Notes under the pieces: generated by a model
Database searches by the model: none
What the model was told of the DNA's origin: nothing
What the model saw: the letters and a program-made list of their open reading frames with translations, nothing else
Position numbers and translations under genes: made by a program
In this document: in pieces, positions 24,194-32,755 of the stretch
Layout of the letters: every line of letters begins with the position of its first letter
How positions within the stretch are numbered: the first letter of the stretch is position 1
Source: Acidimicrobiales bacterium
GTDB lineage: Bacteria; Actinomycetota; Acidimicrobiia; Acidimicrobiales; Acidimicrobilacustridaceae
Reading direction: 5' to 3'
Length of the DNA: 37,685 nucleotides
Assembly (NCBI GenBank): GCA_026419545.1
Contig: JANZZE010000007.1
Coordinates: 1-37,685 of the forward strand

Positions 24194-24636
24194 CAGCGTC
24201 GCGCGTCACCTGGGAGCGGGCCGACCTCGACGCCGAGCGCAACTGCGTACTGGACGATGCCATCGCGCCGACCGTTGACAATTCGCCTCATGACCTGCTG
24301 CACCGGCCACGTGCGCGTGCCATCAGGAAACTGGATGGCAGCGCTCACCTCAGGATGGTCATCGAGTTCGTCAACGATCCACTCGCCAGCCAGGTCCCTC
24401 CTGACAACCTCACCGAGATAGCTACCCAAAGCGAACACGCGTTTGCCAGTATCCACTGCGAGAAGTCCCCCGGGTCTCGGCGCCCCTTCGGCGACGTGTT
24501 CGCAGAAGAAGCGCTCGAGATCCCACAGGCTTGCTGGACTCCAATCGGCCCGATAACCACTCACGCGTAGCGCATGAGCAACAAAGTCCGCAGCGAGTCG
24601 CAGCTCATCGAGCAGTGGGCGAGATTCCTCGGTCAA
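24166..24636 (-). CDS. Conserved hypothetical protein (~156 aa)
   Basis: Start set provisionally at TTG 24636, because the open frame beyond 24674 lies entirely over the nrdJ 3' end and has no protein-like composition. Text such as RPLLDELRLAADFVAHALRV, RPGGLLAVDTGKRVFALGSYLGEVVRRDLAGEWIVDE, IQFPDGTRTWPVQQVMRRIVNGRRDGIVQYAVAL looks like a compact alpha/beta protein of the kind found next to DUF-type actinobacterial genes. No catalytic motif was recognised. It ends WWSRWRRKR. Confident that it is coding, unsure of the start. Confidence 0.6.
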   Translation of the reverse strand: MTEESRPLLDELRLAADFVAHALRVSGYRADWSPASLWDLERFFCEHVAEGAPRPGGLLAVDTGKRVFALGSYLGEVVRRDLAGEWIVDELDDHPEVSAAIQFPDGTRTWPVQQVMRRIVNGRRDGIVQYAVALGVEVGPLPGDARRWWSRWRRKR

Positions 24637-30517: not shown

Positions 30518-30991
30518 TTATTCCTGATGCCGCTTGGGTTCGGTGGTCTTCTTGAGCAGCCGGACTTCTCTCTGGAAGTCATCTGGATCATCGAATCCCT
30601 TGTACACACTGGCAAAGCGGAGGTAGGTGACAGGGTCAAGGTCTTGAAGGCGTTCAAGAACAGCAAGACCTATCTTTTCGCTGGTCACTTCGCCGCCGAG
30701 CAAACGGAACTGCTCCTCGATCTCGGTAGCGACTGCTGCGATCAGGTCAGCCGTGAGCGGACGCCCCTTCGCAGCAGCGATGATCCCGGTCTCGATCTTT
30801 GTCCGCTCGAAGGGAACCTTGTCACCAGACCGCTTCACCACGACGAGGGGGGCCTCTTCCATGCGTTCAAAGGTGGTGAACCGGTGCCCGCAGGCCAGGC
30901 ACTCGCGCCGGCGACGGATAGCGGACCCATCGTCTGCAAGTCGTGAGTCAACCACCTTGTCATCAAGGCCAGAACAGGCAGGGCACCGCAC
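30518..30991 (-). CDS. nrdR: Transcriptional repressor NrdR
   Basis: Zinc-ribbon plus ATP-cone repressor of ribonucleotide reductase genes; ATP/dATP status controls DNA binding. 157 residues from GTG 30991, chosen since the family starts M-R-C-P-x-C; the frame extends to 31243 but that part has no similarity. Zinc ligands: CPAC at 3-6 and CLACGHRF. ATP-cone: VVKRSGDKVPFERTKIETGI... ending TYLRFASVYKGFDDPDDF. The likely target nrdJ with two NrdR boxes is in this window. Confidence 0.96.
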   Translation of the reverse strand: MRCPACSGLDDKVVDSRLADDGSAIRRRRECLACGHRFTTFERMEEAPLVVVKRSGDKVPFERTKIETGIIAAAKGRPLTADLIAAVATEIEEQFRLLGGEVTSEKIGLAVLERLQDLDPVTYLRFASVYKGFDDPDDFQREVRLLKKTTEPKRHQE

Positions 30992-31207
30992 GTGATCGAC
31001 GCTAGTGCCATGCGTACCAACTACGCCTCTCGTCGCCGTTCCACCGACAGCGATCAAACGCCGAGTCGGCTTGTGCCCTTCAGACGATTCTCCAATTCTT
31101 GGCTGTCGTCTCACGCGGCCAGCCCAACCATCACCACGACGGTCCGGATGCACTGCCCACCCTGAGGGATGTCCAGCCGACAATGAACCCAGATCACGCA
31201 TGGGCCC

Positions 31208-31320
31208 TCCAATCACTGGTCGACACCATCGAGAACGATGCACTCGAGCACGACTTGAACAGGCGGCGTCGTCTGCTGGCGGGTTCTCTCAGTCGTCGAG
31301 ACCATCGAGAACGATGCGCT
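31208..31320. repeat. Direct repeat of the LysM gene's 3' end, offset 76
   Basis: 31284-31320 (last codons and stop of the LysM gene) is repeated at 31208-31244; the best 32 bp (31213-31244) match at 28 positions. Both copies read IVLDG(L/V)D(D/Q)-stop on the minus strand. The extra copy is followed by TTGGAGGGCCCATG. Confidence 0.7.
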
Positions 31321-31801
31321 GTCCCGGTTGAAGCGGTCCACCGCCGGTACGGCTAGCCAGTTCGTCGACAATCGGTCGGAGGTCACCACTAGGTCGAACG
31401 CGTTTCGCGATACTCCAGAGCGTGTCACCGGGCCGGACGAGATAACTCGTGCCCTGGGCCGACGTTCCGTCCGCCACCCCTAGCTGGCGCGGGCGAGCGG
31501 ACGACGACGCACGAGCTATTGCAGGATGCGTCGTCGATCCAGGCGCTGATGTGTCAGTGGTGACCATCGACGAGCTCATGCTGGCCGGCGTCGACAAGCC
31601 CAGGAATCGAATGGCAGCGGGAAGAACCACCCCGATCGTCAACCACGCGAGCGCAACAGCCAGGACGGCCACACCGACGCGACGGCGCCAATAGCAACCA
31701 GCCGATTGCGTTCCGCCTACTTCCGGCCCCTCAATTGCTTTCAGCACGGGGCGCAAGTGAGCCAGAGTCGACTGCTGTGGAGAGAAGACCAGAGCTGCCA
31801 T
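31289..31801 (-). CDS. LysM-domain membrane protein divergent from lexA (YneA/ChiZ/DivS-like)
   Basis: 170 residues from ATG 31801 (GAGGAG upstream); ten more residues are possible at 31831. One membrane helix at ~40-63 (VGVAVLAVALAWLTIGVVLPA), a Ser/Thr-rich linker, and a C-terminal LysM domain (SYLVRPGDTLWSIAKRV...LQPGQRIVL) that binds peptidoglycan. A small LysM membrane protein divergent from lexA is the arrangement of the SOS-induced cell-division inhibitors YneA (Bacillus), ChiZ (Mycobacterium) and DivS (Corynebacterium). The shared SOS boxes support induction after DNA damage. Function is inferred from position and layout. Confidence 0.8.
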   Translation of the reverse strand: MAALVFSPQQSTLAHLRPVLKAIEGPEVGGTQSAGCYWRRRVGVAVLAVALAWLTIGVVLPAAIRFLGLSTPASMSSSMVTTDTSAPGSTTHPAIARASSSARPRQLGVADGTSAQGTSYLVRPGDTLWSIAKRVRPSGDLRPIVDELASRTGGGPLQPGQRIVLDGLDD

Positions 31802-31890
31802 GGGATCGATTCTCCTCGGGTGGTGTGACACTCGGCGTGCAGCAGCTGACTTCGTGCCGGGGAACCACCAGTGACGCGGCTGCCCGTGCT

Positions 31891-31904
31891 AGAACTTTCG
31901 TTCG
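31891..31904. promoter_or_regulatory. SOS box 1 (AGAAC-TTTC-GTTCG)
   Basis: One mismatch to the actinobacterial LexA site CGAAC-N4-GTTCG. Nearest box to the LysM gene. Confidence 0.6.
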
Positions 31905-31905
31905 T

Positions 31906-31919
31906 CGAACGACAGTTCG
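31906..31919. promoter_or_regulatory. SOS box 2 (CGAAC-GACA-GTTCG)
   Basis: Perfect LexA half-sites; starts 15 bp after box 1. Confidence 0.8.
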
Positions 31920-31940
31920 CTGCGCCTCACAACAGTGACA

Positions 31941-31954
31941 CGAACATGTGTTCG
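31941..31954. promoter_or_regulatory. SOS box 3 (CGAAC-ATGT-GTTCG)
   Basis: Perfect half-sites with a near-symmetrical centre; likely the strongest operator of the set. Confidence 0.9.
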
Positions 31955-31980
31955 AAGTCAAGATCCTGGCCGTGATTTAT

Positions 31981-31994
31981 CGAACATACGTTTG
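31981..31994. promoter_or_regulatory. SOS box 4 (CGAAC-ATAC-GTTTG)
   Basis: One mismatch in the right half-site; 40 bp after box 3. Confidence 0.75.
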
Positions 31995-32021
31995 CTAGCG
32001 TTTCGCCGAGCAGTAAACTGA

Positions 32022-32035
32022 CAAACAAACGTTCG
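32022..32035. promoter_or_regulatory. SOS box 5 (CAAAC-AAAC-GTTCG)
   Basis: One mismatch in the left half-site; 41 bp after box 4 and 61 bp before the lexA start. Confidence 0.7.
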
Positions 32036-32095
32036 TAGCAGTGGGCTGGGCGGCCATCATTGGAACCACCCATGACAATAGGAAGGACGACAGCC

Positions 32096-32755
32096 ATGCC
32101 TCCCGCAGCAAAGACTCGAAGATCAAAGCCACAAAGGCTGACAGAGCGCCAGACCCAGGTGCTCGACTTCATCGAATCGCAGATGCGCGAGCGCGGTTAC
32201 CCGCCCTCAGTCCGCGAGATCGGAGAGGCCGTCGGTTTGACCTCCCCGTCAACGGTCCACTCCCACCTCAACACCCTTGAACGCCTCGGATACATCCGAC
32301 GTGATCCGACTAAGCCCCGAGCAATCGAGGTCCGCTACGACCCCAATTCCGGAGCCGCGCTCGAACGTCGCCCGGCTCGCCACGTTCCACTGCTTGGCGA
32401 TGTCGCAGCCGGCACCGACGTACTTGCGCAGGAGAACGTCGAGGAGCTGCTACCCGTCCCGGCTGATTTCACTGGCGAGGGCGAGCTCTTCATGCTCCGG
32501 GTCCGAGGGGATTCGATGATCGACGCGGGCATCCTCGACGGCGACTACGTCGTAGTCCGCTCGCAACCCATCGCAAACAACGGCGACATCGTCGTCGCTG
32601 GGATTCCCGGCGACGAAGCAACGGTCAAGATTCTTCGGACGACGCCGACCTCCGTCATCCTCGAGCCGGCCAACAGCTCAATGAGTCCAATGGAGTTCAG
32701 CCCCGCCGACGTCATCCTGTACGGCCGAGTCGTTACCGTGCTTCGCCGTCTTTGA
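32096..32755 (+). CDS. lexA: SOS response repressor LexA
   Basis: Represses DNA-damage genes and cleaves itself when RecA is activated. 219 residues from ATG 32096, chosen for the AGGAAGG ribosome binding site; ATG 32072 is possible. Winged helix-turn-helix in residues ~15-75 (LTERQTQVLDFIESQ, PPSVREIGEAVGLTSPSTVHSHLNTLERLGYIRR). The peptidase part has the cleavage site Ala105-Gly106, nucleophile Ser140 (RGDSMIDAG) and base Lys178 (ATVKIL), all intact. It should control itself and the divergent LysM gene through the five boxes upstream. Confidence 0.97.
   Translation: MPPAAKTRRSKPQRLTERQTQVLDFIESQMRERGYPPSVREIGEAVGLTSPSTVHSHLNTLERLGYIRRDPTKPRAIEVRYDPNSGAALERRPARHVPLLGDVAAGTDVLAQENVEELLPVPADFTGEGELFMLRVRGDSMIDAGILDGDYVVVRSQPIANNGDIVVAGIPGDEATVKILRTTPTSVILEPANSSMSPMEFSPADVILYGRVVTVLRRL

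Follow-up and report, generated by a model that had tools for sequence, protein, structure and literature searches.

The DNA between lexA and a divergent LysM-domain gene of an uncultured actinobacterium is a DNA-damage control region, and it very probably works as a LexA-controlled divergent regulatory region with an additional P1/PafBC-type promoter for the LysM gene. The region lies in a stretch of 37,685 nt, referred to here as the window (Acidimicrobiales bacterium, assembly GCA_026419545.1, contig JANZZE010000007.1, positions 1-37,685, forward strand). It carries five SOS boxes, and the boxes, the gene order, their conservation in relatives and a near-fixed geometry of the promoter-like elements around them are described below.

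Genes and SOS boxes of the region

The gene on the right of the boxes encodes LexA, in agreement with the preliminary description. The protein scored 227.9 bits with the equivalog model TIGR00498 (cut-off 110.95) and exhibited a winged-helix DNA-binding domain (PF01726) and a S24 peptidase domain (PF00717). It presents GDSM and EATVK motifs, and VAAG at residues 103-106, S140 and K178, which we take, from their roles in E. coli LexA, to be the Ala-Gly cleavage site and the Ser/Lys dyad. The divergent ORF, for which ATG 31801 is likely the start rather than GTG 31831, ends in a LysM domain (PF01476, 26.3 bits versus a cut-off of 20.9) and holds a single hydrophobic segment, read by eye. With a membrane segment, an outer LysM domain and an orientation divergent from lexA as for ChiZ, the gene appears to have the ChiZ/YneA-like layout, and the resemblance to SOS-induced division inhibitors that had been proposed for it is upheld, at the level of sequence, by the domain and the locus type. 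Downstream of it nrdR, which we take to be Rv2718c at the M. tuberculosis locus, probably starts at 31000, a start chosen by eye. The order lexA, divergent LysM gene, nrdR is that of the actinobacterial lexA-chiZ (Rv2719c) locus type.

Table 1. Features of the lexA-LysM region (window positions)
Feature	Position	Strand	Description
nrdR	30518..31000	-	TIGR00244; downstream of LysM gene; listed ORF reaches 31243
LysM protein gene	31289..31801	-	170 aa from ATG 31801; C-terminal LysM domain
P1/PafBC-type element	31809..31830	-	TGTCACACC-N8-A-N3-T, 7 nt before LysM ATG
SOS box 1	31891..31904		AGAACTTTCGTTCG, 1 mismatch; 1 bp from box 2; leader of distal LysM transcript (predicted)
SOS box 2	31906..31919		CGAACGACAGTTCG, 0 mismatches; downstream of distal LysM promoter (predicted)
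Weak predicted distal LysM -10	31932..31937	-	CACTGT, 18-nt spacer; placed by comparison with relatives
SOS box 3	31941..31954		CGAACATGTGTTCG, 0 mismatches; between predicted -35 and -10 of distal LysM promoter
Predicted distal LysM -35	31956..31961	-	TTGACT beside box 3
SOS box 4	31981..31994		CGAACATACGTTTG, 1 mismatch; right half-site overlaps predicted lexA -35
Predicted lexA -35	31991..31996	+	TTTGCT, overlapping box 4
Predicted lexA -10	32014..32019	+	TAAACT, 17 nt after -35
SOS box 5	32022..32035		CAAACAAACGTTCG, 1 mismatch; at predicted lexA transcription start
lexA	32096..32755	+	219 aa, ATG 32096, AGGAAGGA 8 nt before

The Gram-positive and actinobacterial SOS box has the palindromic consensus CGAAC-N4-GTTCG. 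Five such boxes, each with 0-1 mismatch, begin where they had been proposed to begin (31891, 31906, 31941, 31981 and 32022), boxes 1-2 on the LysM side and boxes 4-5 on the lexA side as had also been claimed. When the 294-base stretch 31802-32095 was shuffled 20,000 times with dinucleotides preserved and searched at 0-1 mismatch, 19,543 shuffles contained no box, 454 one and 3 two, and five were never obtained. By this count the palindrome is far commoner at the locus than expected by chance, the criterion by which the sites are assigned to the SOS boxes. The sole other 0-1 mismatch site in the 37,685-base window, at 24432, is a lone box with 1 mismatch (24432-24445, CGAACACGCGTTTG). A scan of the window at up to 2 mismatches gave 43 matches versus a shuffle mean of 30.9, and 4 of 100 shuffles reached 43; since this is close to background, weaker boxes are not to be counted, and the counting of 2-mismatch boxes was dropped. 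In the own genome of the window, the exact pattern GAAC-N4-GTTYG was found 80 times on both strands versus 47 times for the reversed pattern, and among these matches five boxes stood together at no second place. The five are, on sequence grounds, real LexA-type sites.

We compared the locus with 203 further lexA loci. Fifty-three came from the family/order, where lexA was found in 54 of 61 genomes, one being the window's own; 80 were top LexA matches in named genomes, chosen by similarity to the window LexA; 30 had the highest LexA scores in the phylum among the matches listed; and 40 were picked among the phylum matches listed (29 mostly one per family, 11 from the same class/order). After removal of 12 of the 204 loci including the window (8 duplicates and 4 with fewer than 260 bases upstream), 192 remained, in sets that are non-random because B was picked by LexA similarity and C by model score (Table 2).

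Table 2. Numbers of loci with given box counts, neighbouring genes and promoter-like elements in the 192 loci. LysM (tblastn match) and nrdR are counted upstream on the other strand; a few loci end short of the neighbours, and LysM misses are not absences, since the LysM protein diverges fast and some loci are cut short
Set	Loci	0 boxes	1	2	3	4	5	6	LysM	nrdR	TTGAC-box	P1-type
A, family/order	53		2	3	11	34	3		45	47	46	39
B, named genomes	75		1	4	15	30	24	1	70	66	42	19
C, distant top hits	28		18	5	5				1	18	0	0
D, same class/order	7		1	2	2	2			6	4	4	2
E, others	28	2	16	1	6	2	1		6	11	9	1
Window	1						1				1	1

All 53 loci of set A have at least 1 box, and 37 of the 53 have 4 or 5. In the 128 related loci of sets A and B the commonest count is 4 boxes (64 loci), with at least 5 in 28. 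A control stretch of 330 bases within the lexA gene was free of boxes in 154 loci and held a single one in 3, the rest being too short. Close relatives thus usually have three to five boxes, five being a high though not a rare count. The preliminary description had implied a rarity of five operators, one or two being given as common for lexA; this does not stand, as 4-5 boxes are usual in close relatives and M. tuberculosis has four according to an excerpt of PMC8151990.

The same counts bear on whether box 1, and possibly box 2, could be by-products of local duplication with little function, a reading that we regard as rather unlikely. It would agree with the deviation of box 1 at its first base, with the single base pair between it and box 2, and with set A, where 34 of 53 loci carry 4 boxes but five-box loci number only 3; against it, the 15-bp pair with TAGAAC recurs in two loci, L036 and, from another family, L053, and pairs at 14-16 bp occur 59 times in the 192 loci, many of them in related lineages.

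Nine LysM-like ORFs, hand-picked from 21 loci and thus not a sample, all have a LysM domain (9/9); the ORFs at L187, L188, L191, L221 and L230 are not LysM-like by appearance. The best LexA matches in named genomes are mostly from metagenome genomes titled Ilumatobacter, Ilumatobacteraceae, Acidimicrobiales, Acidimicrobiia or Actinomycetota. Five loci (L126, L153, L134, L148 and L151) carry the titles Bifidobacterium breve, Acidimicrobium ferrooxidans and Ferrithrix; their LexA proteins are 67-69% identical to that of the window, and their box spacings (30-31, 15, 24) match loci of uncultured Acidimicrobiia. The Bifidobacterium label looks wrong.

Promoter layout and box spacing

In 163 of the 192 loci one box has the half-site GTTTG in place of GTTCG, and 161 have exactly one such box; its absence in the other 29 counts against a general lexA promoter layout. 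A TA follows TTTG after 23-25 nt in 157 of the 163 loci. Counted by box, offset 24 occurs in 139 of 165 GTTTG boxes, any other offset up to 58 in at most 17, and the window has the minority value of 23. This conserved geometry would give a -35 of the TTTGCC/TTGCCT type that shares bases with the operator, together with a -10 of the TANNNT type. A scan of 31780-32110 for sigma-70 promoters and terminators yielded none at its threshold. In the subgroup L106, L109, L114 and L119 a box lies 15 bp before the GTTTG box and another 24 bp after it, unlike the window.

In the window, box 5 begins 3 bases after the lexA -10 hexamer. With TTTGCT, 17 nt, TAAACT and box 5 close behind, the 41-bp offset between boxes 4 and 5 can be read as the interval between a promoter's -35 and its start site. 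Boxes placed on these two lexA elements would account for this offset better than helical facing, which had been put forward for the last three boxes. Their spacings of 40 and 41 bp had been given correctly. With 10.5 bp per turn, distances of 15, 35, 40, 41 and 81 bp come to 1.43, 3.33, 3.81, 3.90 and 7.71 turns; boxes 3 and 5, separated by 81 bp, would lie about 100 degrees apart and off one face, and boxes 1 and 2, at 15 bp, about 154 degrees apart.

The conservation of box spacing, which had been suggested as a check, was examined in the relatives, and the spacings differ widely. Neighbours of the GTTTG box peak at 15 and 29-30 bp upstream and at 24 and 40-41 bp downstream, with many other values between. 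Over all loci, a period of 10.5 gave a vector strength of 0.19 for the 122 upstream values and of 0.40 for the 97 downstream ones, no higher than other periods (period 8 gave 0.56 and 0.65); with distinct spacings only it was 0.05 and 0.12, in a test of helical phase that is weak because the loci are related and the distinct spacings few. Given this wide variation, one-face binding of LexA is not supported: the angles in the window fail to add up and the relatives do not favour 10.5.

It is very improbable that the boxes form a cooperative array, in which LexA dimers at about four-turn spacing would sit on one face in a looped or stacked complex. In favour of such an array are the window's own spacings of 40 and 41 bp and, in relatives, the frequency of downstream neighbours at 40-41 bp from the GTTTG box (22 of 97), but the roughly 100 degrees between boxes 3 and 5 and the varied spacings of relatives without preference for 10.5, weak as that test is, speak against it.

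On the LysM strand, 102 of the 192 loci have TTGAC 1-3 nt ahead of a box (Table 2). In L145 the arrangement is TTGACA-box-TATACAAT, the box filling the promoter spacer, as in some relatives. Box 3 of the window, whose link to LysM the preliminary description had missed, is predicted to belong with this distal LysM promoter, boxes 1-2 lying in its leader. The window's -10 hexamer, CACTGT, is poor, and its gap from the TTGAC element to box 4 is 18 bases versus 7-8 in 56 of 87 loci, a single case from which nothing follows. A classic TTGTCRGTG motif was also sought by eye beside box 3 on the LysM strand; TGTCACTG is present, with no TA-N3-T at the right distance, and this candidate was rejected.

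A P1/PafBC-type element before the LysM gene

A PafBC-type element, also overlooked previously, adjoins the LysM start codon as judged from its motif. It matches the spacing TGTC-N12-TA-N3-T exactly, with the hexamer GAGAAT versus TANNNT; alternatively, GAGGAG before the ATG may be a Shine-Dalgarno sequence. The pattern TGTYAYACC-N8-A-N3-T, pointing toward the LysM gene and no more than 520 bases from lexA, was found in 62 of the 192 loci, and on the opposite strand in 0. An ATG follows the hexamer after 6-7 nt, at the would-be transcription start, in 44 of these 62. The 28 distant top-scoring loci of set C contain neither TTGAC nor the strict P1-type pattern, and the TGTC core in 2.

The own genome has 14 copies of TGTCAYACC-N8-A-N3-T, versus 0 and 0 for the reversed pattern. 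The copy at recA, TGTCATACC-N7-TAGGGT, fits the PafBC geometry fully, and in 20 of the 29 recA loci of relatives examined, 39 other genomes having had a match, the element lies on the recA strand about 60-180 bases upstream. Taking the first ORF of at least 80 codons, a crude rule, the followers in the own genome include recA, the LysM gene, dnaB, ribosomal protein S6 and a Cas3-HD protein, the dnaB element having a SOS box 23 bases on. Since a thiolase (by eye) and several ORFs without clear family are also among the followers, and one site has no ORF, an enrichment before repair genes is only suggestive. Written as TGTCAYACC-N7-NANNNT, the element stands before the LysM gene (31809-31830, minus strand), recA and dnaB (L250; L240). 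A perfect SOS box (CGAACGTCAGTTCG, 2167-2180 of L195) lies about 240 bases upstream of the own-genome recA.

A search for WYL (PafB/PafC-type) proteins gave 0 matches in the own genome, whose assembly is 90.9% complete. Of the 41 genomes in the relatives search, the own one included, 39 have a match. The other genome without a match, G048 (L256), has, like the window's own, a P1-type element at recA. The lack may reflect either incomplete assemblies or another activator.

Taken together, the geometry near the LysM ATG and the copy before recA suggest leaderless, dual LexA/PafBC-type control of the LysM gene. From this layout we infer LexA occupancy, promoter activity, induction, division inhibition and PafBC as activator, in the following way. 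LexA dimers on boxes 4 and 5 would cover the lexA -35 and start, giving autorepression, and LexA on box 3 would block the LysM-directed promoter between its -35 and -10, boxes 2 and 1 adding repression within the leader. Upon DNA damage, RecA would promote self-cleavage of LexA, so that lexA and the LysM gene would both rise, and the LysM membrane protein would then probably delay division, as ChiZ/Rv2719c does. The P1/PafBC-type promoter, independent of RecA and directly ahead of the LysM ATG, would probably give a leaderless LysM mRNA.

Another distribution of roles, to which we assign a low probability, would leave only boxes 4-5 active with LexA and have the LysM gene expressed mainly from the leaderless P1/PafBC-type promoter, boxes 1-3 being redundant or used for fine-tuning. 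The ATG 6-7 nt from the P1-type element is consistent with it, as are the PafBC motif directed at the M. tuberculosis Rv2719c operon (excerpt of PMC8151990) and the title of a paper that terms Rv2719c inducible independently of RecA; on the other side, relatives conserve box 3 together with the TTGAC that flanks it, and the same excerpt has the other three M. tuberculosis boxes acting in control of the divergent operon.

Comparison with known systems

The locus is a known kind of SOS system with its anatomy refined, and otherwise an ordinary SOS locus. In M. tuberculosis, following the part of PMC8151990 considered here, four clustered SOS boxes lie between lexA and the divergent Rv2719c operon; one box serves lexA, and three boxes with a PafBC motif serve the operon (printed Rv2019c-Rv2017c in the text, rv2719c operon in the figure title). 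The two loci share, as far as that excerpt goes, a lexA beside a divergent operon, clustered boxes and a PafBC motif directed away from lexA. They differ in that the window has five boxes, the P1 hexamer GAGAAT and no regulator protein found in the assembly, and in that its promoter geometry comes from comparison of relatives, the M. tuberculosis locus being known by description.

In Corynebacterium glutamicum the DivS gene lies beside lexA. Its product is an SOS-inducible division suppressor that an excerpt of PMC3989709 calls an unrelated protein. ChiZ is a LysM-domain membrane protein in excerpts of PMC3989709 and PMC13396833, where its topology is said to be similar to that of YneA. The latter, from Bacillus subtilis and so from another phylum, is a bitopic membrane protein that is induced in the SOS response and carries a LysM domain (excerpt of PMC13396833).

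The PafBC motif is given for mycobacteria as TGTCGG, TGTCAG or TGTCAC, N10, TA-N3-T (PMC8151990), elsewhere as tTGTCRgtg-N8-TannnT (PMC5656591), and is named RecA-NDp in PMC6789036, each in the excerpt available. The window element shares with the mycobacterial recA P1/PafBC promoters TGTC and the 16-bp step from the first T of that motif to TA-N3-T, and differs in its TGTCAYACC type and relaxed first hexamer base. In the open-licence literature searched, titles and opening lines of abstracts gave no paper on SOS/LexA control in Acidimicrobiia, and no paper was found there on PafBC in this class. A -35 sharing an operator half-site and a P1-type leaderless element are without match in the literature compared, as far as its excerpts go.

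We consider it evenly balanced whether a class of RecA-independent damage promoters (TGTCAYACC-N7-NANNNT) in the Acidimicrobiia drives a leaderless, lexA-linked LysM mRNA and precedes recA, dnaB and rpsF. If so, the mycobacterial double wiring of recA and a chiZ-like gene by LexA and a PafBC-type activator would predate the split of the two actinobacterial classes. The analysis turns a count of boxes into a testable layout, namely which box serves which promoter and why one half-site is often GTTTG, and it suggests an origin before the mycobacteria for the control of a division inhibitor by both LexA and a pathway independent of RecA.
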